Origin: Piper betle
Lineage: Eukaryota; Streptophyta; Magnoliopsida; Piperales; Piperaceae
DNA length: 64,000 nucleotides
Reading direction: 5' to 3'
Assembly (NCBI GenBank): GCA_033002965.1
Contig: JAURVB010013550.1
Coordinates: 1 to 64,000 of the forward strand
The position numbers were made by a program, and so were the translations under genes. Below, in pieces: positions 12,564-46,838 of this stretch; position 1 is the first letter of the stretch, and each line of letters starts with the position of its first letter. The notes beneath the pieces were generated by a model, which made no database searches, was not told the DNA's origin, and saw nothing but the letters and a program-made list of their open reading frames with translations.

Positions 12564-13253
12564 ATCTCTCCCTCTTTTTCTTTAATGGTCTTAACTTTCA
12601 TACGTGAGACTTTTACCAAATAAAAAATGTTTCGATTTTATTCAAAATAACGGGTAATTTCAATGTTATTTATTTCAACTCAAAATTAAGGACAATCATA
12701 TCATTATTAATAATTTCCTTCTACAATAATCATTAAAAATTTACACAGTTGGAAAATAAGCTTCCTATTTTCCGACAATATGCTCTTAATAATTTCAACA
12801 AACTAGATTCAAGTTAATAAGTTTTGACAGCTATATTAGATAATCAATTATTTAAGATTAATTAAGGATTCAGTAAAATAAGTGAAATTTGTCTTCCATT
12901 AATTTTACAGAATACGCGCCTCCTAAGGTAGATCCTATTCTATTGGTCGGGGTTTGTCAGCGGGGTGGACGTGTTCATCTTAAGATTTGCATAAACCTAT
13001 CGCTGGTTAGTTTCGATTACTGAACTACATCATCGTAAGACACTTCAATGGATAACTAGCGATTAATAAGATAATTTGAGGAAACACTATAATTTGATAG
13101 CTCAATTAATACATAATAATGAGGTCGAAAATAACAAATGGAAAAAACGCAAAGAAATATGAAGATTGCTTCATCACATATAATATATCATAGTTCAGAA
13201 ACAACATTCGTTTATTGTTCATCATCCCACCATTATTTGATCAAAGAGTCGGT

Positions 13254-16200
13254 TCACAACTCATCATGAACATGCCAAGGGCACATGGGTTTGCCTTCCC
13301 TTGTCTTCTTTTCACAATAGCAGGGACACTCATTGTAAAACCTACGATTCGAGTCATGGTTTTATATTCAGAACTGGTTGATTTGACCGTTATTTTTTAG
13401 TCGAGTCAGTTTCGGAACACGTGTACTTAGCTGACGCCAGTCGTGTGTATAAACTATGAGGGTCATGCGTACCCAAGTATATGATGATAACGTTATGAAC
13501 ACAGCAGAACAGAATGAGTTATCAGAATATATAAGAGTATACTAGTTCCTTGTTTTTATTTTTATATATAGTGGATCGTAGAATTAGTCTTAAGCTGTTT
13601 ACCACGTTAGGACACGTTACAGGCAGTTTGGGCGGGTTGATAGTTCTAGATCATATCATTATGATGTTTTAGTGTTTATTTATTTTATGGGATTTTTTCA
13701 ATTTTTATGGAATTTTTTAGGATTTATGGCAACTTAATTATTATTCTTGACTTGAGCCGGAGACGAGTCAAGTAATATTTAGAAGTTTGCCACTAGCCCT
13801 TTTTCTTCCCTCCCAATGCTTTCTTCCCCAAACCCTTTTCTGGCCGTCGTCCAGGCCTCCACGACGCTGGATCACCGCGCCCACATTGCGCTCACATCAC
13901 TGATTCTGTCGCCGACGACCATCATAGCCACCATCCAGTGGTTGCCTCGACACCTTTGACCAACCCACAACCCTCCCCGACCGGAGCGAAGGCCATCGCC
14001 ACCCAGGCCGGCCGAATCTAGCCACCCACCACCGTCGCCTCTACTTTAATCATTTTCCGACGAGCCACCCCCTCGACCAACCACGTCGACATTGTGGACA
14101 TGTCGGGCTCACCGAGTCGGTTCCAATGGTACCCAATATGACCCATATCCAGCCAGTAGACGCCGCCAGTGATTGCTGTCGGAGAACACCCAGAAAGTTG
14201 CCAAAAAACCACCGGAACCCGCCCAAAAACCAGATTTGCATGAATTTGGCAGATCATCCACCGAGTTCATCCAGTCGAACCTAATCAACTTTGGATGCCG
14301 CCGAGCGTCGGATTCGAGCTCCGAGACGAGTGTGAGACCCTAACAGTCGTGGACCGCCTACGACGAGAGGTATAATTACCTCCTATTTGATTATTTAAAC
14401 TTGATGATTGTTAGCATAGCAAGTTAGGGTTGATTAATTATCATGATAAATATTTGACTATGGATGAGGTGATAAGTGCATGATGCAATTAATTGAGAAT
14501 GAATAGTACGTGATCTAATGAGGTAGATCGAGTCTGAGCATGATAAGTGACCACGACGTAAGTTAAAAAACACAATAAAATTTGTATGAATAGGATTAGT
14601 TAGAATTATTTTCACACGTATGATTATTTGATCATTGATTGAGGTTCATTGAGTTTGATGCATCATTTAGTTAGCAAGCGTTAGTATTTAGTTTTGATGT
14701 GTAGGTACGGAGTGGGAGCTCGCCGCCTAGGCGCGATGACACGCTTGGAGCTTCTACCAAATCCGTTTAGGACTCGTCTCTGTTTTACTCTACTCTATTG
14801 AATGTTTGTTTTAATGCTTGCAGGACGAGTTATTTGGCGTTTAATCGAATCCTACTTAACTTGGGACGTTTAGCCGAACACTTTTCCAGATTAATAACCC
14901 CTCGAGGATGATTTCGAAAACAAGATCCACCACAAGTTGCCTTCAGGCCTATTGTATAAATCTCTTCCTAGGCCTATATATATAATTTTATTGAGTTTTT
15001 AGTGAGACGAGAGATGGAGAAACCGACTGCACATACCATGAGCGGATGTCGTGACAGTCAAAACGGGCTCTGGATTAGTGCAGCGGACTGTTCCATTCTT
15101 GAGGGATCCTGACAACTTCACGTTTGAGTTCCTCACACCTAGAAAACATGGAGGTTTGTGGGTTTAGTACAGTGTATATCTGGACTTGTGGTTCAAAGGG
15201 TACTAAATGCGACTGCCTGAGAGTACTCGGCCTTCGTGCTCAAGGCCACGAGAAATATGGAGGTAAGGAGAGGGCTTAGGATTTGAGACCAGAAAATGTA
15301 GTAAGAAAATGCCGAAAGCAACATTAGTAGCAGCAAATCAGTAAGTTCGGGATGCTACCGAGTTTGCAGCCTAGTGGCTCCTCAATAGGTGCCCTTCAGA
15401 GTGTTCACGAGGAGTATCTGATGTTTTCTTTCATATGAGAGTATGCTCTCATAGCCAGCTTGTTATAGTTATTTTTCTTTCTTGACCAGTAACACTTGTT
15501 ACTGACGTGTTTTTATAATATATGTAGGTAATAATCACTAGTTGGAGGAGCCAGTCAAGACGGAGGAGCACTAATGTCGCTTACACACATGATAGTTGAT
15601 AGAGTGGTTAATATTTTGTTATGATCTTATTATATTGTTGTGATGTGATTAAATACTAAAATATGAGGGCATGATGAGATTAAATGCTAAGACATTATGA
15701 CAAAAAAAGGAAATGTAAATAGATTGCACAGCAGAAGTATGGTGGGTTGAAACCCAAGTTGTAGATGAGTATACAACATATTAGATTATGTGTGATTGAA
15801 ATCATTGATATATGCATATATATATTTGTATATATTATTTTGACAGGGTGGACCCTAATTACACTTTTAGGGGAGACTCTATCCATTGTATTTCAGAATT
15901 TTTATGTGATTTTTATCGTAATTGTAGTGGTGTGTAAATTAGTTTGCATGTCATCCATATAGTATCATGTGAGGATTCTATGCATTCATCCATGCATGAT
16001 GAGTAATGTCTTCATCTTAAGACGTCAAGATTAGATCCGCACGAGTTGGGTACAGGTTAGCCGACCTAACCTGGGCCTGTAACATGTCGGTCCGGTTCAC
16101 GAACGTGAACCGGATTTGGGGTATTACACTCATCCTTGTTACCGGCAAACCCTAATGGCACACAAAGGCACTCCTCGCAGCATGGTATACAGAACGACAT

Positions 16201-16671
16201 GCAATAATCTTTCCTGTGCTTCATCTTCGAACATCTGTAATCATATTTAGCTGGGCACTCTGCAAGTAAATTTAATAGCCAAACATCAATTTAAATAACT
16301 CCTAAACTAGCCATACAAGCGGACAACATACAACCAAAGCACTATATCACTACATACAATTCTTACTTACTAACGAGGAACATAAATAGGGAGTCGAACT
16401 GTCCATCAAACTTCAACACACAAGAGCAATCGAATATTTTAGCTAGCTCGAGTTAGAAACCAATAAAGCATGACAAAACTAATAAGATAAATAGCAAGAA
16501 GGGAATGTGTATATTACCTGATGGGTTAAGATCTAAAGTTGAGATTAGTTCTCCATCACCATATTTTGTGCTAGCCTACGAGTGCATAGGCAATAGAAGA
16601 GTTAATCTGTGAATTATAAGGTAGATAGTGAAGAAGGATAAAACGAAGAAGAATGATGTTGGTGTTTGCAT
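13254..16671 (-). pseudogene. GASA/snakin gene copy 2, disrupted by a solo LTR
   Basis: Exon 1 is 16607-16671, exon 2 is 16518-16570, and exon 3 is split into 16129-16259 and 13254-13333 by the LTR at 13334-16128. Four further lesions are visible. The exon 1 donor reads CACAG-ATTAAC, so GT is lost. The second conserved cysteine (AKC) is now AKY. The original stop codon is TGG, extending the frame by seven codons to a stop at 13254. A conserved arginine near CPCY is replaced by cysteine. The intact paralog is at 3319-3915. It is very unlikely to make a working peptide. Confidence 0.92.
13334..16128. mobile_element. Solo LTR (2795 bp), copy 1 of the family
   Basis: Begins TGTAAAACC and ends GGGTATTACA, and is flanked by the 5-bp duplication CTCAT (13329-13333 and 16129-16133). 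The same five bases occur once in the intact GASA paralog, which is the empty site. No gag-pol region follows, so it is a solo LTR formed by recombination. The length and ends fit a Gypsy-type element, not proven. It contains a GC-rich stretch (13840-14360), a TATAAAT box near 14955 and splice-like motifs (AGGTATAATTACC). Three relatives start at 18086, 24990 and 45112 in the same orientation. Confidence 0.9.
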
Positions 16672-18085
16672 ATATACTACTGTGCTAAAATGTATAATCT
16701 ACTGTAAATGTGGGAAAATTTATTATCTACCATAAATGGGATATTTAAAGCCTAATAAAAAAATGGGGAAAATTATGTTGTTTAGTATGTAACAGTGTAC
16801 ATGAGAGAATGACAATGTTTAATGTTTCTTACACTAGCGGAGAAGCACGAAAGCAGCGACATGGCAAGGATAAGGGTGAGAATTACAAATGGTGAGCAAG
16901 CCATTTCTATGTTTTTTATTATCTTAGATTGGAATGCTTGGTATTATGAATGGTATTGGAACGTGTTGGACTCCTACTTATAGAGAAGAGGAGAAGGGAA
17001 AATTTTTTATTGGGAGGCTTAGTAGAGATTGGATTTGATGGAATGTGAAAGGTTTGAAGGATTGAGAAAAATGAACGAGGGCATTGATGAGATTTTCAAT
17101 GCTCGGGGAAAAGCATTTAGTTGTTGGACTCTTCATTTTGCATCAAGCATTTAATACTTGCACTTTTTCATTATTTACATATAACTTTTATGCATACTTG
17201 TTTCGTACCCTAATCCTAATCTAATGTTTAGGAAGTCTAAGATGATCTTGCTCGTTCCACCTTGAGAGACTGGTTTGGGTCTCAGATGGTGGTCACGGAG
17301 TTGTTTTGGTTGAGAGCCAATGGTGGATGCTGGAGTGGCCTCGACTTGAGGTTCATAGAGTTTCATTGAAATAATAGATTAATTTTAGGGAAGTACTAGA
17401 GAGAGTCTTGCGGTAAGATTTGGAGAATCTTGGAGTGAGGTTCGTTATAGTCTTCAAGAAAGAACTAGAGGCAATTCTCCGGTGAGATATTAGATAAGTC
17501 TCAAAATGAGATTAGTCATGGTCTTCAGGGAAGAACTAGAGAGGTGAGTCTTGTCTGAGACCAGCATGCTATTGGATTAGACATGTTGATCGATAAGGTT
17601 TGAGTGGAAAAGAGGTTGAGAGACATCAAAATATTTATAATCTTTCTCATAGTGATGTATTTTTCTCCGTGAACTTAGTAATTTTGTCATCCATATTATT
17701 TTATCAATGTCTATATTTTGCTTATTCTCTTCGTTGTTTATGTTGTTCCAATTTTGGGAGGTCCATATCCCCAACATGTTTTCATGGAAATAATATATTT
17801 TTGTAGCCACCAAAGATGGCTTATGAACTCCGAAAGATGGAAATTTTTTCATGCAATCTCATCGACTCGTCATTTATTTTGTAATGACTAAGTGTAAACT
17901 TATAGATTAGTTATTTCTTCAGAAATGGTTAACTAAAAAAAGGAAATCAATCAAAGTTAAAGATAAATCCTCATTAATATACCAAACTTTACTCCACTAT
18001 CATGAGACTGGTTAACTATTTTGGAGATTGTATATTTTATCTACTTTAAGAAAATTCCGTTCATAAAATTTCTTTATGTGACTCA
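16672..18085. other. Upstream region of the GASA pseudogene, no gene seen
   Basis: Diverged copy of 3916-5330. It is interrupted at 18085 by the second LTR insertion and resumes at 23396. No coding frame is supported. Confidence 0.6.
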
Positions 18086-19192
18086 TGTAAAACCCGCAAT
18101 CTGAGTTAGGGTTTTATACTCATGAATTGATCGGTTTAGTCGTCTGGTTCGAGTCGAGTTAGTTTCAGAACGCGTGTACTGAGTTGACGCCGATCGCATG
18201 TATGAGCTATGAGGATCATGTGTACCCAAGTATGTTATGATAACGTCATGAATATAGCAAAAAAGAATGAGCTATCAGAATATATGAGAGTATGCCAGTT
18301 TACTTTTACATATATATAATGGATCATAGAATTAATTTTAGATTGTTTACCGTGCTAGAATACGTATTTATGATGTTTGGGTGGGTTACTAGTTGCAGAG
18401 CCTGTCATTGTGATGTCGTGGCTTATATTATATTTTATGGGATTTACTCCTAATTTTTTGGATTATTTAAGGATTTATTACAAGTTAGTTATTATTTTTT
18501 ACTCAAATCGGAGTCGAGTCAATACTTATTTATGATATTGCCGTCAACCACCTCCCGCCCCTTTTCTTCTTCCCCAAACCCTGATCGCTGCCGCACCACC
18601 CTCTGCTTGTAGTCGTTGCCGCCGCCAACACCATCTCGGCGCCGATCGAGGCCGCCTAGCCCCAAGCGCCATCGTCGTGCCGCCCCAAGCGCTCCCGGCA
18701 ACCACCTGGCCTCCACAATGCGAGGAAGCCATGCCCTTGTGCTGCGCTTCCATCACCGATCCCGCCGCTATGATCCAGTGGTCACCTTGACACCTTCAAC
18801 CCTTCCACGACCTTTCCTGAATGGAGCGGAGCCCATCTGCCTCCTATGCTGAGCAGATCTTAGCATTCATCACCGACCGCCCCTGTTTCTGTCATTTTTG
18901 GTGAGCCGCCACCTCCACCGGGCCGGTGCCAATGGTACCCAATACCATTTCTATCCCACCAGAAGACGCCACCGAAAAACCACCAGAAAGCTACAGGAAA
19001 ACCACCAAAATCCACCGAAAAACTGCTGGAACCCTAACGGAAAACCAAATTCGCTGGAATTTGTCGGATCTTTTGTCGAGCTCATTCAGTCAAACCGATC
19101 GAACTTTAGACGTCGACAAGTGCCGAATTCGAATTCCAAGACGCGTGACGAAACCCTAGCCATCATTGATTGCCGATGACGTGAGGTATAAC

Positions 19193-20064
19193 CCGGGTTG
19201 AGAAAATCGGCCGATTCCGTGCGGAATCGGCCGATTTAAATCGGATCGGCGCGATGCCGATCCGATTTCGGGGCCGACCGATCGGTCGCTGAATCGGCCG
19301 ATTTCGGCCGATTCCAACCGATTTAACTCGGAATCGGAATCGGCCGATTTAAATCGGAATCGGTTTTTTACGAAATTACTAAAATACCCTAGGTATGATT
19401 TTAATTAAATTAATTAAGCATGGGTAAAATGGTAATTTGGCTTTTAAAACCCTCCCCGCTTCCGCCGTCGCGCTCGCTCCGCCGCCCTCCGCTCCGCTTC
19501 CGCCGCAGCTCCGCCACGGCCGTCCGACCACGCCACTGCCGTCCGACCACGCCACTGCCGTCCGACCATGCCGCCGCCCCGTTTCCGCCCCCGCCGTGCG
19601 TCCCCGACTCCGGGGTCGCCGCCCTCCGCTCCGCTTCCGCCGCAGCTCCGCCACGGCCGTCCGACCACGCCGCCGCCCCGTTTCCGCCTCCGCCGTGCGT
19701 CCCCGACTCCGGGCTCGCCGCCGGCGGGGGTAGGGAGGGGAGGGTGGCATTCTCGTAATTAAAAGTTGACTCGAGTGTAACTCGAGTCAAAAATAATAAT
19801 TAATTTATAAATAATTTTAAAAAAATCTTAAAAAATATTTAAAAATATCATAAACTATAATACACAGAATAATATCAAAATAACATCAATACCTAATTTT
19901 AATATATTTATATTATGAATTATCAAATTATTATATATAACCGATTAAATTAATTTGGACCGATTCAACTGAACCGATTCCTGGCCGATTCAGACCGATT
20001 CCGATTCCGATTCCGATTCACTGGAAAACCGATTCCGATTCCGATTCCGATTTATGCAACCATG
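19193..20064. mobile_element. hAT-like non-autonomous element
   Basis: 872 bp with an 8-bp target duplication GGTATAAC (19185-19192 and 20065-20072). Imperfect 18-bp terminal repeats match at 13 positions (left CCGGGTTGAGAAAATCGG, right complement CATGGTTGCATAAATCGG). The subterminal regions are packed with AATCGG/CCGATT motifs on both strands, as expected of transposase-binding repeats in hAT elements. The core 19440-19745 is GC-rich with an internal duplication offset by 137 bp; open frames there come from base composition and are not believed. Copies of the LTR at 14370 and 46150 show the empty site. Confidence 0.85.
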
Positions 20065-21394
20065 GGTATAACTACCTTTGATTTAATTATTTAAAATTTA
20101 TGATTGTTAGCACAACATGCTAGGATTGATTAATTGCCATGACGAATGTCTAACTATGAATGGAGTGATGATTTGTATGATTTGATTAATAGTGAATGAA
20201 TGTTAAGTGATCTAATGTAGTACATTAAATTTGAGCATGTTATTCGACTACAACGTCACTTAGAAAAACACAATAAAATTGGTATGAATAGGATAAGTTA
20301 GAATTATTTTCACATTGATGATTGTTGAATGTGATGGATGATGATTGTGTTAGGAGTGTAATGTTCATGTCGAGTTGATGCATCATTCAATTAGCGGGCG
20401 TTAGCTTCTAGATTTGATATATAGGTATGGAGTAGGAGCTCGCTGCCTAGGAACGAGGACATGCTTGGAGCTTCTACTATGTCCGTTTAGGACTCGTCTA
20501 TGTTTTATACTCTATTCTAATACATGTTTGTTTTATTGCTTGCAGAACAAGTTAAGTGGCATTTTATTGGATTCCACTTAACTCTGGTCATTTAGCCAAA
20601 CAATTTTTCGAATTAATAACCCTCCAGGATGAGATCCCTTGAGGGTGATTTCAAAAATAAGATCCACCACAAGTTTCCTTTGGGCCTATTATTTAAATCC
20701 TTTCCTAAGCCTATATATATAATTTTATCGATTTTTCAGTGAGACGAGAGATGGTGAAACTGACGTGCACATACCATGAGCGAATGCACGTGACAGTCAA
20801 AGTGGGCTCTTGATTAGTGAGTAGACTGTTCCATTCCTAAAAGATCTTAACAACTCCACGTTTAGTTCCTCACACTTGGAGAACGTGGAGGTTTACGGGT
20901 ACTGTTAAGTACAGGGCACGTCCGGACTTGTGGTTCAAAGGGTACTAAAGGCGATTACCTGAGAGTACTCGGCCTTCGTGCTCAAGGCCAGGAGAATTAT
21001 GGAGGAAAGGAGAGGGCTTAGGATAAACTTGTACTCCCGATGGACCAGAGAAAAATGAAATGAGAAAAATGCCGAAAGAGGCATCAGCAAAGCAGTCAGT
21101 TCAAGATGATATCGGGTTTGCAGCTCTAGTGGCATCTCAATAGATGCCCTTGAGAGAGTTCTAGTGAAGTATTCAAATGTTTTTCTTCATATGAGAGTTA
21201 GCTCTTATAGCCAATTTGTTATAGTTATATTTTGGACTAGTAACGTTTATTACTGACATGTTTTTATACTATATATGGGTGATAATCACGAGTTGGATGT
21301 ACCAGCTTGGACGGAGGAGTACTGATGTCGCTTAAACACACGTCAGTCAATAGAGTGGTTAACATTTTGTTTATGATGTTATTATATTGAGAAT

Positions 21395-21487
21395 GATGTG
21401 ATTAAATGCTAAGACATAGTGATATGATGTGATTAAATGCTAAGACATGATGATATGATGTAATTAAATGCTAAGACATGATGATAT
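21395..21487. repeat. 31-bp tandem repeat, three units, within the LTR
   Basis: Units start at 21395, 21426 and 21457, each with GATGTGATTAAATGCTAAGA or a one-base variant. The LTR copies at 13334 and 45112 have fewer or more diverged units at the matching place (about 47495-47560 in the latter), so the array length varies between copies. Confidence 0.85.
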
Positions 21488-21610
21488 AATGTGAAATGTG
21501 ATAGACTGCATAAGTGGGTTAAGACCCAAGTTTCAGAGTAATTAATACAGTATAGATCAGAATTTTTGTGAATGAAGTTATTTGATATACATATATATAT
21601 ATATATATAG

Positions 21611-21920
21611 GGGTTGGGTAACCTGGGGGCGACTCGAATCTGGACCATCCGATCATAAGGACGATTCAGATCCTTTCCTCTCAAAACCCTAACCCCTCCC
21701 CTCCTCCCAAGCGCCACCGCCACCGGGCCGCTGTCGCCGCCGCCACGCGACCCCACCCTCGCCGCCACCGTAACTCGCCACCGTCCACGGGCGTGGGCGC
21801 GGCAAGGAGGAATGGCGGCGGCGCGTCGGGGCCGTTGTCGCCGCGTTGTTGCTGCGTTGCCGCGCTACCCCGCCACCGTCGCTCACCGCCACCTCCTCGT
21901 GACCCCACGCTAGGGACCCC
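21611..21920. mobile_element. Fragment of a TA-tract hairpin element
   Basis: Starts directly after a TA microsatellite and has the family layout: an end sequence (GGGGTTGGGTAACCTGG), then an imperfect inner hairpin (ATCTGGACCATCC pairing loosely with GGACGATTCAGAT), then a GC-rich core. It is cut off at 21920 by a second TA tract that starts the next element, and no matching right end of its own was found. Confidence 0.6.
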
Positions 21921-22257
21921 ATATATATATATATATAGAGGGGCGCTACCCTGCGCCAAAGGCAGAGTAGCGCCCCTGCACCACAAATTAATCTGGGCCG
22001 TCCGATTATAAGGACAGCCCAGATTAATTAGGATTTTTAAAAAATAAATTTAAATTTAATCTGGGCCGTCCGATTACAAGGACGGCCCAGATCGGGCACC
22101 CCCAATCCTTCCTCCGGTGCCGCCGCCGCCGTTGTGGCCCACTTCTTCCTCTGGCGCCAAGGACGACGGCGATGACGTCGGTAGGGTTGGGCGGGGCGGT
22201 GGGAGGTGGCGGAGGGAGGCAGCAGAGGCGGGGGCCGAGCGGAGCGGGGCAGTAGGG

Positions 22258-22436
22258 GCAGGGCGGTCTCTGGCGGAGGCAGGGCGGTCTCTGCGCGGGG
22301 CAGGTCGGTCTCTGGCGGAGGCAGGGCGGTCTCTAGCGGAGGCAGGGCAGTCTCTGGCGGAGGCAAGGCGGTCTTTGGTGGAGGCAGGGCAGTCTCTAGA
22401 GGAGGCAGGGCGGTCTCTGGCGGAGGCAGGGCAGTG
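22258..22436. repeat. 21-bp GC-rich minisatellite (eight units)
   Basis: Eight full units of the type GCAGGGCGGTCTCTGGCGGA plus one base, starting at 22258 and repeating every 21 bp to 22425, with a partial ninth unit. Because 21 is divisible by three, the array reads as a repeated seven-residue peptide in several frames, which explains the long spurious open frames. Confidence 0.9.
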
Positions 22437-22569
22437 GCCGGCGGGGGAGGGGGTGGGGGGTGCAGGGGTGGGGGGGAATGCAGGGCGGTGGGTGTGGGCG
22501 GAGTGGGGTGGCGGCAGGGCGGGGGAGGCGGGGCCGGGGCGAGGCGGGCTGGGCGGATGGGGGGCTGTT

Positions 22570-22627
22570 GGGCGGAGGGTGAGGGCGAGAGGGGGCGGCG
22601 GGCCTCTCTCGCCCTCACCCTCCGCCC
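22570..22627. repeat. 22-bp perfect inverted repeat in the E1 core
   Basis: The arm 22570-22591 (GGGCGGAGGGTGAGGGCGAG and two more bases) pairs perfectly with 22606-22627 across a 14-base loop. It marks the point where the core changes from G-rich to C-rich on the plus strand, as in the larger foldback of element Z. Confidence 0.9.
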
Positions 22628-23065
22628 ACCAGCCCCCCATCCCCTCCGCCCCACCACCCCCCTCGCCCCCTTCCCCGCAGCCCGCCCAGCCCTCGCCACA
22701 CCCCGCCACCCCCCGCCCTCCCCTCGACCTCCCCCCACCCCGCCCACCTCCCACCCGCCGCCTACCCACGCCGCCCTCCCCTTCTCCTCCGCCCACCCAC
22801 GCCGCCCTCGCCCCTCCTCGCCCACCCCCGCCCGGCCGGCCGCGGCCGGATCCCGGACGCCGCCCTCCCCTTCTCCTCCGCCCACCCACGCCGCCCTCGC
22901 CCCGCCTTGCCCGCCCCCGGCCGGCCGGCCGCAGCCGGATCCCGGCCGCCGGCGAAGGAGGGGGTGGTCGAAAAATTTTTTATCAAATCTGGGTTGTTCG
23001 ATCATAATCGGACGACCCAGATTATCCTAGCACAGGTAAGGGTTTCCTGCCCAGGAAACCTTTAC

Positions 23066-23100
<35 letters not shown>

Positions 23101-23475
23101 CATATGTTGATTTGATGGGTGGCTCCTAATTGCACTTTTAGGAGAGACTATGTTCATTTTATTTTTAAAATTTTTATTGATTTATCACACTTGTTGGTGT
23201 GTAAATTAGTTTGCATGTCATCCATATAGTATCATGTTAGGGTTTTGTGCATTCATCCATACATGGCAAGTCGTATCTTCATCTTAAGATGCTAATATTA
23301 GATCCACACGAGTTGGGTTCAGGTTAGCCAACCTAATTGGGGCCTATGACATGCCGGTTCGGTTCACGAACGTGAACGAGATTTGGGGTATTACAACTCA
23401 TGAACCTTTTCACGAGCCATAGACCATGTTCAATTCTCAATAAGGCCAACAAATGCAATCAAATATAATCTCCTT

Positions 23476-23669
23476 CTAGTCTATAATAAGATTATCAAAT
23501 GATTACAATTATTTTGAGCATAAACACATCGCCTTAATGGCAAATCATCTTACTTAAAACTCATGTTGTAATTAATAGTTCATAAATAACTTGCAATCTC
23601 AAATTTGTGTTTATAGGAAGATAATAGATTGCAAATAATTGGTGATTGTAAATTTTAAATAGTTTGCCA
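23476..23669. other. AT-rich spacer, no gene seen
   Basis: Short AT-rich stretch between the end of duplication copy 2 and the copied 5' end of the small membrane protein gene. No coding frame or repeat recognised. Confidence 0.5.
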
Positions 23670-23962
23670 CTTGTCTTGGATGGTCGTCCTGCCGGCAACC
23701 GTCGCCCCTCGTGCTGGCTTGATCGTCTCTACATCTTGGTGCAACCATATATGAGGTTGATATATATTGATACGGTAGACGCTAGCCCAATATCAGACCA
23801 ACCCACAAGTACGTAGAATGGTTCATAGCTCAATTTTTGACCGGATATTCAGTTCGGAAAATACTTAATTCAATTCGAAGTTCCCTAACTCAATTGATCA
23901 ACCGATTTAGCAAATCTTTAGAGCTCAAAAAATTCAGTCATAATTTTGTAATATATATATAT
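23670..23962 (-). pseudogene. Copied 5' end and promoter of the small membrane protein gene
   Basis: Closely resembles 38446-38740, which holds the N-terminal codons and upstream region of the minus-strand gene at 37805-38528. Shared phrases include GCTGGCTTGA, TACGGTAGACG and CCAATATCAGACCAACCCAC. Only the first part of exon 1 is recognisable; the membrane-spanning region and exon 2 are absent, so this is a truncated duplicate. Both copies end in a TA tract on the same side; in this copy the tract borders element Y. Confidence 0.8.
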
Positions 23963-23964
23963 AG

Positions 23965-26900
23965 GAAAATATTACTATGCGCTGCCTTATTTGGCAGCGC
24001 ATAGGCAGCGTGTATTATGGTGGCCGTTGGATCGAAATCCAACGGCCACCATTCTTTCCATCACTTTCCCTCCCCCACTGCCCCACACCGCCGCCCCCGC
24101 CCCGCCCGCCACCGCCGCCCCTCCGCCGCCGCGCCCCCCGCCAGCAGCCCCTCCCCCCCCACCTGCCCTGTTTCCCCCTGCCCGGTCCACCGCCTCGCCC
24201 CCCCTGCCCTGTTTCCCCTGCCCCCTCCGCCGCCTCGCCCCTGCCCGCAACCCTCCCCCCACCCCCGCCCGGTTCCCTACCCCCCACCGCCTGTTTTGCC
24301 CCACCCCCGCCGCGGCCTCGCCCGCCCCTGCCCTGTTTTCGCCACCCTCCCCAGCCGCCCATTTCGCCCCCACCCCTGCCACCGCCCCGCCTGTCGACCA
24401 AGCTCCTCCCCGCCATCTGCTGCCCTAGCCACTCCACGCCGGCGTCACCTGCTTCACCACCGACGGTGGCGCGACAAAACACATGGGGAAAGGAGCGATG
24501 GCATTTTCGTAATAAAAATTTGACTCGCTCTTAACTCGAGTCAAATTTACAAAATAAATTTTAAAAATAAAATATAATAAAATAAAAAATTGACTGGCTC
24601 CTAACTCGAGTCAATTTTATGAAATAAATTTTTAAAATAAAATAACATAAAATAAAAAATTTGACTCGCTCCCCGCTAACGCCGCTGCTTGCCGACCACC
24701 TCCTTGCCGCCACCCACACCCTTCCCCCGCCCCCCCACACCCGCTGCCCCCTGCCCCCCATCGGCCCAGGCTCCACCTCCTGCCGCCCCCTGACCCCCTC
24801 CCGCCGCCCCCTGCCCCCCATGCCCTCCCTGTCCCCCCTGCCCTGCGTCGTCTCCCCGATCTTGACTAGAGTCTAATTAAAAAAATATTATTTTATATTT
24901 TTAATTTATTTCACAATAATTTTTAATTTTTTTAAAAAAATACAAAACCATAAAATAAATTATTATAAAATGAAAACTTGACTCGATCCTGTAAAACCCG
25001 TGACTCAAATCAGAGTTTTACAAGAGTGAACCAGTCGGCTCAACCGTCAGTTCGAGTCGAGTCAGCTTCATGGACCGCAAGTTGAGTTGAGGCCAGCTGT
25101 AAGTTATGAGCGATGAGGGTCATATATGCTCAAGTGTACAATGATAATGTCTAAAAGATAATGAAAAATGGGTTATCAAGTATATAGAGGTATACAGTAT
25201 TGATTGTTAATTTTATTTAATCGAAGAATAGTTTTAGGCCGAATAACGTATTAGGACACGTTGGATTATATTCAGGTGGGTTATTAGTTATAGAACATAT
25301 CATTTGGATGTTGCTGTGTTCGTTTGATTTTACGGGATTTTTCCCAATTTTTTTGGATTTTTTTAGGATTTATTAGGAGATAGTTATTATTATTAACTCG
25401 AGTCAGAGTCGAGTCAAGTTTAATTTACAAAAGTGCCATCGCACGCCCCTTCATCTTCCCCGACACTTTCCCCTCCCAAAACCCTACCGCCACTTTGTGT
25501 CGTCGCCACCGCCGCCACGACCCACTCCAGCCACCGTCTCGCCGCTACGACGGCGGAATCGCCCCACAAGCCGCGACGCCCTCCCTCGTCAATTCACCAC
25601 CGTCCGGGCCGCGCCGCCACCGCTGTGATCCCGACAACCACCCCCTCGCCGTCGCCTACGTTTCCCCCATCATCCCAACCGCCATCGAGGCCGGCCGCAG
25701 CCCCAATCGGAGCACGCTATCGCCGCCGCCGCCCGTTTTCAACGCCGTTACCGACAGCCATCGCCACCCCGGCTACTTTGTTTGACACCACCATCGGACC
25801 AAGCTCGTCGAGCTGGTGCCGATAAACCCCTAATTGCCCCATCCCAAACCATCGCCGAAATCCGCCAGAAAATTGCCAACACTCGTTGGAAAACCGCCGG
25901 ACAATTGGATTCGTGGGAAATTCGTCGGATCATCCGTCGAACGCACCCGGTCCAATCTAATCGGACTTCGTACGCCGCTAGGTGCTGAATTCGAGTTTCG
26001 AGCCACGAAACGGAAACCCTAGTCGTCGTCGATTTTCGATAACGCGAGGTATAATTTATTTTAACTTAATTATTTGAAAGTATTGATTATTAGAATTTCA
26101 TGCTAGGATTGGTGAATTGTGTGTTATAATAATATATATAAATGTAGATTTAAATAAGGATAAATTATGAAATTTGTTTGATTGAGTGGTGTTAAAAATA
26201 GAGGCTAAGAAACTAATTAGGGTAACTAGGTAATGATCATGATCTAATACAAACTAGCCTAAGTAGACTTGCTAGAATTGATATAGGTTGATGTGTGCTG
26301 ATTGATGCGTGATTGTGTTGATTGTGTGTGCATGTTATAGGATGTGTGATTCATAGGTTGATGTGTGTTGATTGATGCGTGATTGTGTAGGTACGATGTA
26401 GGAGCTCACTGCCTAGGCGCGTGGACCCATTTGGAGCTTCTACCAGGTCCGTTTAGAACTCGTTCTCTGTTTTACACTACTCTATTGTGTATTTGATTTA
26501 TCATGTGCAGGACGAGTTAAGTGGAGTTTTATCGGATCCCACTTAACTCGGGTCATTTAGCCAACAGTTCTTTTTTTCGGATTAATAACCCTTGAGGATG
26601 AGATCCCTCGAGTTTGTTTTCGAACTTCAGATCCCGCTCAAGTTGCCTTCGGGCCTATTGTATAAATCCCAACCCAGGCCTATATATGTATAGTTTTTGC
26701 GTTTTCAGTGAGAGATGGGATGAGGGTTACTTGCGAGGGTAGGGTGGCGGCTACGAGCGGGGGGCACATAGGTGGTGGGGAATGCAGACAGGGCCGCAGC
26801 TGTCGGCAGGGCGGGGGGTGGGACTGCGGCGACGGACCGGGGGGGGGAGAATCGCGACTGTGGGTAGGCGGCTACGAGTGAGGGCGGGGGCTGGGGCAGA

Positions 26901-27200
26901 GGCTGAGGCGGCCAACCCAGGGCGGGGTGGGGGCAGGGGAGGCCGGCGGGGGCAGCATCAACAGCGGGGCGAGGGCAAGGGCGGTCGGCAGAACGGGGGC
27001 ATTGGGCAGCCGGCGGACGGGGGCATGGGGCGGCCAGCGGGCGGCCAGGTGGCCGGCGGGCGGGGGCCAGGCGACCGGTGGAGTGGGTTTTGTGGGTGGA
27101 GGGGGAGGGATTGATTGTGGACCGTTGGATTAGATCCAACGATCCACGTGAGGCAGCGCATATGCGCTGCCAAAATAGGGCAGCGCACAGTAGCGCTGCC
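23965..27200. mobile_element. TA-tract twin-hairpin element Y (interrupted by an LTR)
   Basis: The left end follows a TA tract and has a perfect outer hairpin (23977-24002, ATGCGCTGCC) and a perfect inner hairpin (24019-24050, 14-bp stem). The right end has an inner hairpin (27118-27146), a 20-bp perfect palindrome (27152-27171) and a further stem (27178-27200) ending at the next TA tract. The left core (24060-24480) is C-rich and the right core (26718-27110) is G-rich on the plus strand. The LTR fragment at 24990-26717 lies inside. No believable gene is present. Treating both ends as one element is an inference. Confidence 0.65.
24990..26717. mobile_element. Truncated LTR, copy 3 of the family
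   Basis: Begins TGTAAAACCCG after GACTCGATCC and follows the other LTRs through the GC-rich zone (25430-26045), the AGGTATAA motif and the CTCACTGCCTAGGCGCG zone. It ends abruptly within the stretch GTTTTCAGTGAGA-GATGGG, about 1.1 kb short of the normal right end. No right-hand target duplication exists. The missing end was probably lost by deletion. Confidence 0.85.
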
Positions 27201-27218
27201 TTATATATATATATATAT

Positions 27219-28014
27219 AGAGGGCCGCTATGGTGCGCTGCCCTCTTTTGGCAGCGCACTATGCGGCGCTAAATCTGGGCCGTTGGATCTCGATCCAACG
27301 GCCCGGACTAATTTGTCAAAAAAACACCCCCCCCTGTTGCATCTGGCTCGCCGCTCGCCCCCGCCGTCCGGCGGAGCCTCGCCGCGGCCGACCCTCGCCC
27401 CAGCCTGCCCGCCGGCATCCCTGTCCCCCTCGGCGGCGGCCCCTGCATCTGGCCCGCCGCCCGCCCCTGCATCTTGCCGCCCGCCCCTGCATCCCGCCCG
27501 CCCCGCCCCTGCATCCTGCCGCCCGCCCCTGCCATCCGGCCGAGCCTCGCCGCGGCCCATGCGGCCGACCCTCGCCCTAGCCCGCCCGCCCGCCGGCATC
27601 CCCGGCCCCCCCTCGGCGGCAACCCCTCATCGGCCCACCAGCCCTCCGCCACCCTCCCGCCCCTGCATCTGGCCCGCCTCATCGGCCCACGGGCGGGGGG
27701 CGGTGGCGGATGGCGGTGGCGGGGGCGGTGGCCGGGGGGCGGCGGGCCAGATGCAGGGGCGGGAGGGTGGCGGAGGGCTGGTGGGCCGATGAGGGGGCCG
27801 CCGCCGAGGGGGGCCGGGGATGCCGGCGGGCGGGCTGGGGCGAGGGTCGGCCGCATGGGCCGCGGCGGGGCTCGGCCGGACGGCAGGGGCGGGCGGCGGT
27901 GGGTGGGGGGGTTGGTATTTTGGGAGGGTGGCTGGGCCGTTGGATCGGGATCCAACGGCCCAGATTTGGCACCTCATGGTGCGCTGCCAATAGTGGGCAG
28001 CACACCATAGTAAA

Positions 28015-28019
<5 letters not shown>
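27219..28019. mobile_element. TA-tract twin-hairpin foldback element Z
   Basis: Best-preserved member, about 800 bp between TA tracts. The left end has an outer hairpin 27233-27259 (GTGCGCTGCC stem) and a perfect inner hairpin 27277-27304 (GGGCCGTTGGAT stem). The right end has a perfect inner hairpin 27936-27963 and an outer hairpin 27980-28008 with one mismatch. The two ends are inverted copies of each other over about 75 bp. Inside, 27519-27679 and 27741-27897 form a second large inverted repeat (about 95% by eye) around a 61-base centre. No gene is called. Confidence 0.85.
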
Positions 28020-28050
<31 letters not shown>

Positions 28051-31342: not shown

Positions 31343-33782
31343 TTATTTACAGACAATAATTGAACCTAGCTCATGATCAGCTGCACCGCTGATTGTTGTT
31401 CCTTTCTCTCTTATGTCCAATAAATATGAAACAGCTTCTTCAGTAATGATCTCAGCAGGAATGGGTAAGAAGATATACACTCTCCACAAACCAGCAGAAT
31501 GCTATCTTTAACATTCACTCTTCTCTTACTGGCAAAGAAGGAATCTCGAGGGCTCAAACGTAAGCACATGTGAGCAAAAGGGGTGCAACCCATACCCTCC
31601 ATGTTTCTTGCTCTATCAGTATTCCAGTTCTTCCTTGACAAATCCACTATTGACTCTTCAAGTCTCCTTGTATGCTCTCTGCATGTGCCCAGGCTTATAG
31701 CAACTGTTATAGACCTAGTTCCAGCAAGTTCAGTAATCACACCATGTTTATCACATAGAAAGTCATCTACTTCGTAGCCAGATGGACCAAGCTCCCATAA
31801 TCCTATCGTCAGACGTAAAGGATCCACAAAAGTAGAGTTAGGGAAATCGTGTTTGGCCATCACTGATATGCCACTAATTTTTTCGATTACCATTTTACTT
31901 TCCATCGCCAAATTCCATTGCTTCATTAAAAATGGTATCTGGATTTTGACTTAATTGAGCTCTTGCAGCATCTAAGGATGCTAGAAGAAGATAATTTGGG
32001 CTAGTGCTTTGAAGCATCTGAAGGCACTGACTTACCCTTTCTTCATCCACAAAATATCCACACACATGCAGCATTGAGGACTGAGTAAGAGAACTAAGAA
32101 CCTTGTGTGTTGACTGAATGGCAAGATCAGCACCTTGCTCAATTGCAGTCGGAGGCATCAAATAATGGAATTTAAAGTAAGGTCCATGCGCTTCATCAAC
32201 TATCAATGGAATATTATGTAAATGGCACAATTCTGAGATAGATTTCAAGTCACTGCATATTCCGTGGTAAGTTGGTGAGGTTATCAGCACTGCACCTATT
32301 CTTCTTCCTTCAGTCTCTAAATCATCTATAGCTTTCTTTACTTGCAAACTTGTGATACCGCCAGATATATCCCTGTCTGAATTATATTCAGGTATGATAT
32401 ATCTTGGCAATGCTCCAGATAAGACCATAGCAGACGTAGCAGAAATATGGGAATTACGAGGAAGAATAAGTGAATCTCCAGGGGAACAAGTAGCCATAAC
32501 TGTCACCAGAACACCGCATGTGCTGCCTCCAACAAGGAACCATGTTTTAGAAGCTCCAAAAAGCACTGCAGCTTTCTGCTGTGCCTCCAATATAGCACCT
32601 TTTGGAGAGAAGATGGTCATCCAATTCTGGTAGCTCAGGTAAATCATGTGCAAATACTTCCCCTCCAATTAGATTGGTCAATGAAGGTGGAGCAGCCAGA
32701 CCCCTATTATGCCCAGGAAAATGGAAACCCGCAGAATTCTTTAAAGCAGAAGTTTGAAGAGCGTTAACCAATGGAGCATCTACAGTTTGAAAAGCATCAC
32801 TTGAAGCAGAAGCGAAAGACGCAGAGTTGAAGTCCTTACTGGCAATTGGTTGTGCAGTGCTCATGCTGTTTTATGTAATTGGCGATCAACTGACTTGAAT
32901 TTAGTTGAGAGACCACACACAGCTTTGTAGAGTTAGATTTTGTAGTGTGACACTTGCCCAAAGATCTGTGCAAGAAAAAGCAGCAAAATGCAAAAAAAGA
33001 TAATGGTAAAGAGAAATAATTTTTCTATATGCTGCTTCTAAGACTTGCCAAGCAGGCTCCATAAAATACATAAATTCTATATTTGATAACATAAATAATA
33101 TTTATCAGCTTACATAGTTTCGTAGCTATGGATTGTTTCCAAAATGCACAAACCAAAGCACAAGTAGTAGCAAGGAATCTCAACTCAGACAGAAAAAGAC
33201 AACAAGCTAACATGATGCTTTTAAGACTATCGTGTACAATACTCCCATTCTTTCACAATGCAAATGAAGGTTTCCATTTCCAAGCAGAATTTCACTATCA
33301 GAAATTAAAAGACAATGCACAATATAGAATAACGAAAGATTTAATCGAATGCCCTAGCAGAAAACAACTACATCCGTTCTAATTCCACCGCTCATCCCAT
33401 ACTACACACGCAATAACACCAACAATTCTGTCAACAGTGGAGAATCATTTCCAACTCTAATAGCATTAATTTGATACAAGCACTACAATGTTGCCCATCA
33501 ACTAGGAATCTCATTACAAATAGGCACACACACACACACACACACACACGCATATGTATGTAAAGAGATAATCCTATTGTACCTCGTAAGAACATCATAA
33601 ATGAGATAAGGAAAGGAACAAACATTTATACAAAGTATGAGAGTGGATAAGGAGGTAGCAACCTGCGGGATCGGGAACTAGGCGCCGACATAACAATGCT
33701 ACAGGCTACAACTCCCACAATTGTAGGAATGAGTAAGAGCAAAAGGTGGTGGAGATGGTGGAAGAGCTAACCTGGCATACAT
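31343..33782 (-). pseudogene. Orn/Lys/Arg decarboxylase-like gene with frameshifts
   Basis: The main block 32864-31343 encodes, in three alternating frames, the PLP-dependent aspartate-aminotransferase-fold decarboxylase found in plant plastids and bacteria. Visible motifs in order: FHFPGHNRG, HDLPELPELD, FLVGGSTCG, TSPTYHG, VDEAHGPYF, and STHKVLSSLTQ with the PLP lysine. One extra base near 32615, one extra base in the A-run 31910-31912 and one missing base near 31457 shift the frame; after correction the frame ends at 31343-31345. An upstream exon-like block, 33663-33782, starts MYARLALPPSPPP, like a plastid transit peptide, and also needs a one-base shift. The link between the two blocks is not resolved. 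Either a pseudogene or a region with assembly indels. Confidence 0.8.
33525..33549. repeat. CA microsatellite
   Basis: Uninterrupted CA dinucleotide run of about 12 units, within the presumed intron or 5' region of the decarboxylase pseudogene. Confidence 0.95.
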
Positions 33783-33929: not shown

Positions 33930-36900
33930 CCATTTTACCCTTCGTTTTCGATGTGCGTCCCACAAAAAAATTAATTTTACAACTTCATAAAACAAACAAT
34001 ATCCTCAGATTTGTGGTGTCTGTGTATGTTGAAAATGAATGGGTGGGGGATGAACCAGCTGCGCACTGAGTAGTCAGCATGGACACAAGCTGATGTTGAG
34101 GATCATCTTCACAAAAAACCGGCAAATAACATAAGGTAATAAAATAACATGAAAGCAATGACATTAATGATGAAAGAAATAGTTCTCATTATTGATTATT
34201 AATTATAGTATATTATCAAAAAAGTAATAGCCCATACATGTTGAGGATCCAAAGCAGTCATGTTGAGCATGCCTCTGTGAGACAGGCATTTACAACCAAA
34301 ATAAATCTACTGATGTTGTCAATCTATTCCCTTCCTGAACTTTCTTCGCGCTTGTGTTGGTTCCAATAGTTGAAGCAGTGATGCATTCTCCCTAAAAAGC
34401 AAACACCCACTTTACCTGTTCAAAACTAACTTCACTCCCGACACCTGAAACTCAAGTGCTTGCCATGTTTGCCACCAGTGATGGGGCAAACTGTGATCAC
34501 AGAGAGTATTGCAGCCAAAATTGCGGCACTACTGTCTCCATAAGAGACCAACCTCAGCCCAAAAGCACTACTATATATCACTGTCTACATATTCAGAGAG
34601 ACCCAGAAAAATACGAGCCGAGTAATTGGAAATAGGATTATGTCCCATTGAAGCCAGAGATGAAGTTGGAGAAGGATGGCAAAGGAGAGAAGCCACTATT
34701 GTGTGTTACATTGAGGTCGTCCTCATGCTCACACATAAATCATCCTCCTCATCAAGGCCTACCGTGCCCTTGCATTTTGCCAACTACATATGATTCTCTT
34801 TCCTCCTCTAGAACACGCACTCGCGCACACGCACACACATACTTTCTTTCTCACTTCTTTGCTTGTCTACTGTGTTAAATTTCACGGCAGGTCAAGGCCT
34901 ATCCTGAGCAGCTGCAGGTTATGATCCCTGATCTGAAACCTTTTCTTGCGGATATCTCAGACAAACCTGTTTCTGACCATCAGGATCTTTGCTGACAAGA
35001 CTGACACTTATGCATCGATCTGTCATTATCATCAAAAGTTAAAGACTTTTTTCATTCAAGACGAGACTAATCATCCAACAATGCACAGTTATAAGAAGTA
35101 TTGTGAAACCTGGATTTCCTGGGTGATTTCACTTCCTGACTGGACCTTGGGTCTGTTGATTTGAAGGATTGAGAACCTGATGCAGAAGTCAAGTTGGACG
35201 TATTATCTCCAAGTATTCAAAATTCAGCTGAGCTGTAATTCTCGGTGATGAAGCTTCTACCATTTGATCCAACTTGCAGGACTGCTTAGATAGAGCAAAA
35301 TAAGATGTATGCAGAAAACAAAGTCCACAAGCGCTTTGCTTATCTTGCCAAAATAATATGCTAGCTCCAGAAGATGATGAATTTTCTGCTTAGTTCATAG
35401 GTTCAAGCTGAGGAATCAATGATCAAGAGGGTATAAATGCACTACATGGTTGGCTTGATATAATGACTGTCACTTTCAGAAGCCTGTTCACTTTGTGAAC
35501 CCTAATTATCAAACAACTCTTACATCTCATTCTCACCTCATGCCAAGGAGCTAGCATTTGACCATGCTATTCAAGAGGAAAATACGTGATAATACTAACC
35601 CACAGATATCTTTTTTTCTACATTCTTTCTTTATCTTTTTCTTCTGAAGTGCATCTCTTTAAGCTGGACATGACAGCGTTGATACACCTATCAATTCACT
35701 ATTCAGAATAATTGATTTGACTTTTCTCGTAATTTGCCAACCATCTACTATCATCTGCAATTTGATACTAACTATAAATAAATAATAATTTCAAAACAGG
35801 ATTCTGTTCATACCAAGGCTTGAAGTCGGAGGGAAGTAGTCTCCTTCAATCTCCACTGAAAAATTTTCTTTTTGATTGGGCCATCCTTCACATATTCCTG
35901 ACCTTTTACATGGTCATACAGCATTACTTTTAATAAAAATCATAATAAACTAGCATGTCTCTGAGAGAGTATACACCACCGTATCGACTCTGACAGAGTG
36001 TCTAACATTTGTCAATAGTCCAGAAATGTCGCTCACAGGTGGTAAAAGACTATTACTGAATGCAAAAAGCTAACCTTACAGTCCAAAATCAGGTAAAATA
36101 CATATTTCTGTGATAGAATCGAGGAAATAGAAGAAGAAGATAATAAAGGAGAGGAATTCAGTCTTCATTCATAATAATCTGGCCATTACAAAAAGATCGA
36201 TACTCTATTTATAGACAGACACAAACAACTAAGTAGAGATTTTAGCATAAATCTCTCAATTATTGTTCCTAAAATCTCTAAAAGAAAATATATACCAAAT
36301 TGACTTAAAATATATCCTAATTTAACTCAGTCAATGAAATATAATTTCATAATTTCATGGCATTTTATTTAAAAAAACTACTAAATAGTAAAAAACCGTG
36401 TTTGAGTAAGTAGTCTACCTTACCTATTTGAGAGAGATAATATTTTCAAACTAAAAGCTACTTGAAATGAATTGCATCTTTTGTTAATCCATATGCTATC
36501 AGCAAGAGAGGTTCCTATTTAACAATCAAGTTTCTCTTCCTATAATCTCAATTATGTCATCTCAAGAGAAGAAATGATTGACAGAGATATCCTCTCCCTT
36601 CCAACCTCAAGTAAAGGGGAAGAATCACATACAAATAATGTAAGCACCATAAATTACATTTTAGTACTGCAAGTATCTTAAAACTTGAAATTTCAACGAA
36701 CATACAATATATTAGACTAATTAGTAGGATATTTGTCGGGGGCACTAATATTTAATTTTCATATTCAACATGTAATGATCATATAGGAAGTATGACTTTG
36801 TGAGCAAAAGTAAAAAATTTTTGTGCCATAAGTGAACCTTTTGTTCAATTTTGAGAGCTCATCAAATTCATAGATAAGAAACAATTCCATGAAATAATAG

Positions 36901-37395
36901 ATAATCAATTTGATAATTAAGAAACCATGGATACACAGAAGCGAATTATCAGTACATGCTTTTCATATGTTTGTACTTGACAAAAGCTTTAATAAAAATA
37001 CCTTTCATTTTGAAAAAATATAGTCTCACCAAATGGTTCTGGAAAAATATATGAATATACATAACATCATTTTAATTAAAGTCCTAACCCATCTGCTTGA
37101 TCAAATTCGTTTTCCCTCTTGCAATAAATAAATTGTACTTTACTACTAAATTTTCACGTACTAGTGGAGTAAACCAACAACACTAAATTGCATAGTATTC
37201 TTCAAAATAATCGGCGCAAAATCATTAATTATATAACTGCGTTGAGTTACACAGATGAATTGGCTCATCTGACCCCAATTCACAGGTTCATGGCTCCAAC
37301 TTCAATAAAGTAAAATGTGTTATAAATGATATGAAGTGTTCGATAGGATGCAGGGGGAATAGTAATGGATGGTCACTTTTTACAAGAACATCCAT
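33930..37395. repeat. Duplicated block P, copy 2, with the same gene relic
   Basis: Corresponds to 5458-8851. The left edge is a composite: 33930-33960 matches 5458-5492 and 33968-34010 matches about 5745-5784, with the DNA between them missing. The relic (plus) at 34890-35165 reads VKAYPEQLQVMIPDLKPFLA and then SDKPVSDHQDLC before a TGA; the neighbouring frame continues RIFADKTDTYAS and KKYCETWISW. An exon-like block reading KPEMKLEKDGKGEKPLL precedes it near 34648. I cannot name the parent gene. A segment of about 405 bp at 36665-37069 is absent from the other copy. Confidence 0.75.
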
Positions 37396-37804
37396 AGTAC
37401 ATGTAAAGAACAACTTCCAAATGTTCTCGTATTTTAACAATTATATATGAACAATTGTAGACCTTATGTTTCCTTGGATATGAGATGTGGCAAAGCTTTA
37501 CTCTTCTTTTTATTGTTAAGGAAGTAAACAAATGTGTTGCTTTGCCCAAGTCTCTGGCTTCATTCTTCATCTCCATAACATAAAAAAGTCAACCTCACCG
37601 TGTTATATCTAACTATGCCAATAATACTGAGTTATCCTCTTGTAGAATTGGCTAGAGAATATGAGCAAGTTTTTACAGAGTTTCAAAAGAACAAACATAC
37701 GTTTTAAGACATCTCTTTTGCAACCAAACCCTTCATCCAATATTACAAAACAACTTACATGCTCATAATCCATACAAGGATCACGCACCTATCTTCTTCC
37801 ACTA
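37396..37804. other. Spacer downstream of the small membrane protein gene
   Basis: Unique sequence after the end of block P. A 67-codon minus frame (37373-37576) has no recognised features. Part of the stretch is probably the 3' untranslated region of the gene at 37805-38528. Confidence 0.5.
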
Positions 37805-38528: not shown

Positions 38529-38733
38529 ACATGACGTTGATATATATATTCATACGGTAGACGTTGGCCTAATATCAGACCAACCCACAACTAATTAGAC
38601 CGGTTCACAGATCAATTTTTGACCCGATATTCGGTCCCGAAAATACTTAATTCAATTCGAAGTTCCCTAACTCAATTGACCAACCGATTTAGCAAATCTT
38701 TAAAGCTCAAAAAAATCAGTCATAATTTTTTAA

Positions 38734-38801
38734 TATATATATACATATATATATATATATCATAATATCTTCGGTCTGGTTCACAAATGAACCAGACCGT
38801 T
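38734..38801. repeat. TA tract followed by an 11-bp perfect hairpin
   Basis: A TA-rich tract (38734-38760) is followed at 38776-38801 by GGTCTGGTTCA, a CAAA loop and the exact complement. It lies at the position matching the left end of element Y beside the copied promoter (23950-24002), so it may be a remnant end of the same element type. Confidence 0.6.
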
Positions 38802-44629: not shown

Positions 44630-45010
44630 GGGCTGGGCGGGGGAAATTTCATGTTTCCAAATCAATATAGACTGTCTGATTATAGAGGCAATATAAATTA
44701 AATCAAACTTAAATAAGAAAAAAATTAAACTCCCACCACTGGCTGATAAAAAAACAAACTCTCACTTCTATGGCGGCCGAACCCAGCCGACTCTAGCCAG
44801 TTTTGACTATGGTCGGCCTCTTCCGATGGCGGGCGGCCGGACCAGGCTGCCTCCTGCCAAATCCAATCGCGACGGTCGGGTTCAGCCAACGGTGCCATCA
44901 TAGGTTAAGAGGGGGGAATTTTTTTAAATACATAATCATTTTGAGTCATCCTTCTAATCAGACGGCTTAGACTAATATGTGGGGCAGGAAATTTTCCATT
45001 TGCTTCAGGC
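44630..45010. mobile_element. Old, degraded twin-hairpin element
   Basis: Both ends keep the layout of the TA-tract family in decayed form: an outer GGAAATTTCATGTTTCC-type stem, then a diverged inner unit (GACTGTCTGATTATAGAGGC) on the left. On the right is a diverged inner unit (CATCCTTCTAATCAGACGGC) and a GGAAATTTTCC stem. The centre (44770-44900) is GC-rich. The TA tracts are no longer clear. Confidence 0.5.

Positions 45011-46780: not shown

Positions 46781-46838
<58 letters not shown>

Follow-up and report, generated by a model that had tools for sequence, protein, structure and literature searches.

What kind of mobile DNA lies between the TA tracts of this Piper betle locus, what moves it, and have such ends been described before? 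Three elements (E1, Y and Z), a fragment and a decayed copy bear on the question within the window, that is, the whole 64-kb stretch of DNA that was analysed. Their parts are as follows.

21591..21608, no strand: TA tract left of the fragment
21610..21920: fragment, from another family with the same plan as E1, Y and Z; left end GGGGTTGGGTAACC
21634-21675: inner hairpin of the fragment, whose outer hairpin has collapsed
21921..21937: TA tract between the fragment and E1, common to both
21938..23067: E1, a non-autonomous element of 1130 bp
21939..21977: left outer hairpin of E1
21984..22031: left inner hairpin of E1
22059..22092: third hairpin of E1, of the inner type, on the left side
22983..23026: right inner hairpin of E1
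23035..23066: right outer hairpin of E1, palindromic though its sequence differs from that of the left one
23068..23097: TA tract right of E1
23951..23962: TA tract left of Y
23963..27201: Y, 3239 bp, its interior holding a partial copy (24990-26713) of the repeat R
23975..24055: left hairpins of Y (outer 23975-24004, inner 24014-24055)
27111..27201: right hairpins of Y (inner 27117-27147, then outer)
27202..27219: TA tract between Y and Z, common to both
27220..28018: Z, 799 bp, a foldback across most of its length
27230..27309: left hairpins of Z (outer 27230-27262, inner 27272-27309)
27932..28008: right hairpins of Z (inner 27932-27963, outer 27976-28008)
28019..28046: TA tract right of Z
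44630..45010: decayed E1-type copy, bounds approximate

The common plan that the initial annotation had read into E1, Y and Z is borne out at six of six ends, each of which carries two consecutive hairpins and an adjoining TA tract. Folded as single-stranded DNA, every one of these ends forms two hairpins (z -4.8 to -10.1), and none of 200 shuffles of any end folds as well. Ten of the 20 strong hairpins in the window, the one at 38.7 kb included, lie within 120 nt of a TA tract; 0.8 would be expected, and none of 20,000 random placements reached this number. Terminal inverted repeats are present in Z, Y and E1, whose ends are alike, and a comparison of the two ends of Y gives z 20.8.

Three further places had been put forward as members, of which two stand. 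A covariance model built on seven sequences of this inner hairpin recovers its own members and independently matches the inner hairpin of the fragment (E 7.8e-5), which supports membership of the fragment at 21.6 kb; the best further place in the window outside the elements has E 0.024. The left end of the fragment shows no folding beyond chance, 173 of 200 shuffles doing as well, and a homologue with an intact outer hairpin occurs in a stretch fetched from the genome (L023:3506-3596). When the window was scanned with each end, one clear outlier stood beyond the main cluster, namely the decayed copy, whose right end scored 35 against the left end of E1 (E1_L), where the mean is 11.3 (s.d. 2.4) and the next score in the window 19. 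These two ends are alignable over 70 columns, and the decayed copy at 44.6-45.0 kb is supported on these grounds; it is absent among the matches of the inner-hairpin model in the window at E ≤10. The hairpin at 38.7 kb was rejected as a remnant end of the family, since its 38770-38801 reaches only E 1.1 in the model and no outlier appears there in the window scan with the ends.

The setting of these elements is itself repetitive. Repeat R, about 2.8 kb long, occurs at 13334-16126, 18082-23401 and 45108-47986 and in part at 24990-26713, with an apparent start TGTAAAACCC and an end ATTACA; one copy hosts the fragment and E1, and the partial copy lies inside Y. Repeat R is perhaps a solo LTR. Long duplications also link 1-5368 with 10050-18081 and 6031-8843 with 34003-37399, in pieces that are 87-94% identical. 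A host gene is represented by an exon on the minus strand at 31895-32668, within 31411-32668, which Pfam identifies as Orn/Lys/Arg decarboxylase-like; the open frame just downstream of this exon has no Pfam match. The decarboxylase exon matches a mixture of plants and cyanobacteria. A host gene has Aristolochia californica as its best match among named sequences, at 38%, while matches without a name reach 92%, and a host gene compared with the viral collection gave nothing. A protein-level search with the translated junction of the right end of Y and the left end of Z (Y_R/Z_L) gave nothing at E 0.1 (5 candidates), and the Z end has no match in the plasmid collection.

The superfamily of the elements emerges from their copies elsewhere in the genome. 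The window's own assembly was searched (527 Mb, 11211 contigs), and all copy numbers given here are lower bounds. The Z end (27219-27305, 87 bp) has at least 40 scored matches among 692 candidates; 20 stretches were fetched around some of these, 16 with both Z ends and 4 with one, and the 16, together with the window copy, make a set of 17 copies with both ends present. The left end of E1 recurs with 88-97% match at no fewer than 39 further places (40 scored of 615 candidates), and that of Y at 39 further places or more (40 scored of 499). It had been expected that copies would end at coinciding positions and that every copy would be bounded by TA. The former is nearly always so: the termini of Z coincide among the 17 copies, save that some ends (at L013, L015, L020, L021 and L023) have lost or altered a few bases, and the junction of E1 reads GAGGGGCGCT in 18 of 20 fetched copies. 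The latter fails for three copies of Z and three left ends of E1. As in SaTar-type elements, microsatellite flanks are found for most copies, with 14 of 17 Z copies so placed (13 in TA, some of it imperfect, and one, L023, in mixed GT/TA) and 15 of 20 fetched E1 left flanks adjoining a TA run of at least 8 on a strict count. At two more E1 left ends (L097, L101) a TA run lies 3-4 nt away, as read by eye, and the remaining 3/20 lie outside microsatellites. The third hairpin of E1 recurs as well, with a second match about 115 bp inward in most of the 40 scored E1 copies.

The three Z copies outside microsatellites are informative in another way. Each is bounded by a perfect target-site duplication flush with its termini, of 10, 10 and 9 bp at L010, L012 and L024, respectively; these lengths, recorded for the Z family only, fall within the 8-11 bp of MULE duplications. 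Target-site duplications of 9-10 bp are a hallmark of the Mutator superfamily (MULEs), and the superfamily is therefore identified as Mutator.

The plan is not confined to the families seen in the window. On the 20 fetched stretches, the inner-hairpin model has 105 matches at E ≤0.01, both strands counted, several of which belong to other families. Most of 17 such places that were examined have an outer and an inner hairpin next to TA, the exceptions being L025, without a clear outer hairpin, and L023:4172 and L019:94, without a nearby TA tract. A second inner hairpin lies within 260 bp of 8 of the 17 Z copies, forming unnested arrays joined by microsatellite; among them, L015 rests on a weak model match, and about 100 bp of other sequence intervenes at L009. 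If the TA tract next to each copy served as a fresh target, such unnested arrays would follow, including the two in the window (fragment-TA-E1 and Y-TA-Z).

Insertion can be read directly at one of these places. Two other copies of the host repeat in the window, at 14369-16133 and 46149-47986, lack the fragment and E1, and these empty paralogous sites show the insertion of E1. At about 15816 and 47665 they hold a short TA run of about 10 nt and 7 nt, respectively; the TA around the inserted fragment and E1 is longer, at 18, 16-17 and 30 nt. The left flank of Y has a relative at 38479-38743 (88% identity), where a comparison within the window found no match to the right flanks of Y or Z; therefore no empty site is readable for these two. 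The hairpin at 38772-38799 (CGGTCTGGTTCA..TGAACCAGACCG) adjoins a TA tract whose left flank matches the left flank of Y.

The same observations bear on how TA comes to be targeted. One published proposal would retain the identification as MULEs and attribute TA targeting to homologous recombination of circles with microsatellite filler (PMC5907723). Arrays joined by TA would be consistent with it, as would the mixed GT/TA repeats that flank L023, which a plain 9-10-bp duplication explains poorly. However, the empty sites of E1 offer only about 7-10 nt of TA, little for homologous recombination, and the Z family also yields clean duplications of 9-10 bp; we therefore consider recombination of circles rather unlikely here.

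A source of transposase was found in longer elements. A search of the assembly for the MULE domain PF10551 gave 150 scored loci of 1143 candidates, all of those listed above the cut-off, and the inner hairpin was present at one of 30 loci taken with about 1.5 kb of flank (C5691, E 7.7e-8). There, FAR1 and MULE domains are followed by a G-rich core, the inner hairpin, the outer hairpin and 48 nt of TA, the left end being lost at the end of the contig. A protein search with the C5691 transposase (150 scored of 1212), with the hairpin model run on the 30 best loci, recovered C5691 again and added C9530 (E 1.4e-5), in which a TA tract is followed by the outer hairpin, the inner hairpin, a C-rich core and then a transposase that has MULE and SWIM domains. 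In all, the two sets of 30 loci, with 13 common to both, amount to 47 distinct MULE loci, of which 2 have the hairpin; the flanks of about 1.5 kb are too short for the others to count either way. A third locus, C10299, shares 94.5% identity with C9530 (2.5 kb) and 99.7% with C5691 (1.2 kb), and it holds an element with both ends.

37052-37091 of C10299: TA tract, left
37092-43344 of C10299: element of 6.25 kb
43345-43382 of C10299: TA tract, right

The two ends of this element are inverted copies (76% over 791 columns including the TA tracts, or about 650-740 bp of the element). Its right end carries both hairpins, and its left end the outer hairpin and a shortened inner one. Between them lie coding stretches of 262 aa with FAR1 and of 509 aa with MULE and SWIM, with stops between; the MULE domain (PF10551) has E 5.3e-33. 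C10299 thus holds the FAR1, MULE and SWIM domain set of the Jittery clade, and C5691 holds FAR1 and MULE. At the transposase-bearing ends, the outer stem measures just 8-10 bp and exceeds chance modestly, being reached by 3 to 5 of 300 shuffles. Inner-type hairpins adjoin both TA tracts of C10299 from outside, with no outer hairpin between, and C10299 therefore seems to have relatives as neighbours, some of them without the complete plan. In C10299, a host gene fragment lies inside a MULE, as in Pack-MULEs: the captured C-terminal part of a PP1 phosphatase (L092:19-216, E 1.3e-26), a piece for which Pfam gives no match. Two further stretches, presumably from an ankyrin/XB3-like gene by reading only, likewise have no Pfam match. 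C5691 and C10299 are 99.7% and 100% identical on either side of about 2.6 kb of internal sequence missing from one of them, and this near-identity, on the aligned sequences, points to recent movement or duplication. At C10676 (217260-217643 and 222717-222806), a MULE match of a second lineage lies 5 kb from a Y-type end, which may be chance.

The initial annotation had looked to a long coding copy for the source of mobility. What exists is a relative with a MULE transposase between ends of the same plan (C10299); such transposase-bearing elements have the plan and the core of the inner hairpin in common with E1, Y and Z, but not the full end sequences, and no copy combining Z, Y or E1 ends with a transposase occurs among the copies and MULE loci examined. 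Together, the 9-10-bp duplications and the transposase between ends of the same plan make it very probable that the fragment and the three elements E1, Y and Z belong to the non-autonomous TA-targeting MULEs, probably moved by the FAR1-MULE-SWIM transposase of the longer elements. Under this reading, a transposase from longer elements with the same ends would move them by cut and paste; insertion would occur mostly into short TA runs, which would then grow, and 9-10-bp target-site duplications would arise elsewhere. The GC-rich cores would be the inward portions of long terminal inverted repeats. Mobilisation of E1, Y and Z in trans by the C10299-type transposase line is what we infer from the plan and from the similarity of the inner hairpins, and the two hairpins would presumably act as the end-recognition sites of the transposase.

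Insertion into TA tracts and terminal hairpins are also what Helitron-like (HLE2/helentron) elements, moved by a Rep-helicase, would be expected to display. Helentrons of the HLE2 type are defined by the lack of a target-site duplication and by unlike ends. Here, however, the same hairpins recur at both ends as inverted copies, target-site duplications of 9-10 bp are present, and elements of the same plan carry a MULE transposase. Given the duplications and the symmetric inverted-copy ends, a helentron identity was rejected, and we regard it as extremely improbable.

Across seven ends in the window (the six and the fragment), the inner stem has two-sided changes in 8 of 18 pairs, a level reached by 2 of 500 shuffles. 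A wider set of 21 inner hairpins takes in the window, members of other families and the transposase-bearing element, leaving out the Z-family repeats, both L016 places, L019:94-146 and L015; two-sided changes occur here in 13/18 pairs (46 cells). The corresponding mean in shuffles is 7.1 pairs with 14.5 cells, and when the partners are slid the count does not exceed 5 pairs or 7 cells. Every row that lies beyond the window was retrieved by a model of the same stem, so that this larger count leans towards the stem; covariation counts can also be inflated by related sequences, and repair from arm to arm could likewise yield them. The outer stem is reached by at most one of 300 shuffles in 18 of 20 validly tested ends (the exceptions being the left end of the fragment, frag_L, and L025a), a count that omits L059, whose row measured a TA tract. 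Judged by the aligned sequences, the covariation shows that the palindrome is kept; the counts do not tell the reason for keeping it.

The arms of palindromes can be homogenised by template-switch repair or gene conversion. The hairpins may, accordingly, be non-functional, their arms kept alike by such correction, which would also give two-sided changes, so that the covariation counts cannot separate it from function. This alternative deserves some weight, although we lean against it: two hairpins stand in the same order at 18/20 tested ends, across families with dissimilar outer hairpins, and the core of the inner stem is conserved in sequence too. The outer hairpins, in turn, share little sequence, as between E1_L and the right end of E1 (E1_R). 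Among functional readings, it is conceivable, if doubtful, that a double cruciform is extruded and recognised by its shape, the FAR1-type transposase reading the inner hairpin while the outer hairpin, nearly free in its letters, and the cruciform-prone TA tract set the cleavage and target site. If true, this would amount to a structure-guided code for ends and targets common to unrelated-looking families, and would explain the mixed arrays of different families.

TA-targeting MULEs with these habits are already in print, as SaTar, MuTAnT, Ac-mMITE, TAFT and Micron. The initial annotation had seen no obvious match to the double-hairpin ends in Micron MITEs, HLE2/helentron elements or foldback MULEs; SaTar elements, which include Micron, are nevertheless the same kind (PMC5907723). 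They are described from guayule, rice (Micron being rSaTar2), sorghum and citrus (PMC5907723). As here, they are non-autonomous MULEs found mostly in microsatellites, often of TA, a minority having 9-10-bp duplications; they also form unnested arrays joined by microsatellite, and their transposase-bearing relatives lie in microsatellites too (PMC5907723). The main text of that paper, on which the comparison is based, does not use the terms hairpin, palindrom-, foldback or GC-rich (PMC5907723). MuTAnT and AutoMuTAnT of Medicago are likewise described as MULEs of TA microsatellites with a 9-bp duplication and modular foldback inverted repeats, AutoMuTAnT being a putative autonomous element with a Jittery-like transposase (PMC4486113). 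By that description, however, the foldback consists of four similar segments and not of an outer hairpin followed by an inner one and a GC-rich core (PMC4486113).

The Ac-mMITEs of pineapple have TA microsatellites on one or both sides in about 74% of cases, 1435 others have 9/10-bp duplications, and 46.1% of full-length copies are clustered (PMC8449440). Their ends are mostly GA...TC, and the left ends of Z and E1 also start with GA; unlike the situation here, that paper reports no autonomous partner, and its text is without hairpin or palindrom- (PMC8449440). The TAFT elements of maize, also treated in PMC4486113, are recounted in PMC5907723 as having a short TA target (6-8 bp) that expanded after insertion, an account that the post-insertion growth of TA here fits.

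More distant comparisons are also instructive. The Jittery clade resembles C10299 in having FAR1 at the N-terminus, a MULE domain and SWIM on the C-terminal side, with inverted repeats described as about 200 bp as against about 650-740 bp in C10299 (PMC6446971, PMC9569675). Tm1 of root-knot nematodes (PMC3169594) and Muta1 of Aedes (PMC5225508) are described as Mutator superfamily elements with 8-10-bp duplications and structured, foldback-type ends. Unlike those seen here, these ends consist mainly of tandem repeats of 12-15 bp and not of two hairpins (PMC3169594, PMC5225508), and Tm1 is reported to have no clear target consensus (PMC3169594). Abermu of barley, a MULE in TA-rich regions, was set aside as a match, its text being without microsatellite or hairpin (PMC9168764).

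The proposal that the elements are not yet described thus divides. Their kind is known (PMC4486113, PMC5907723, PMC8449440); among their features only the double-hairpin end may be undescribed, with SaTar, Ac-mMITE and MuTAnT compared by their text descriptions. Within the literature searched, the scope of which did not extend to supplements and most subscription papers, no description of two consecutive hairpins per end was found, and the papers listed for the hairpin sequence, sought in published text, are unrelated by title and abstract.

MULEs that target TA are on record from several plants (PMC4486113, PMC5907723, PMC8449440). One genome here offers many families of the same plan, and within a single family TA insertions occur side by side with clean duplications of 9-10 bp. 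With transposase-bearing relatives 94.5-99.7% alike over 1.2-2.5 kb besides, the question of how TA runs are chosen becomes testable, and the covariation in the double-hairpin end provides a concrete hypothesis on what the transposase sees.
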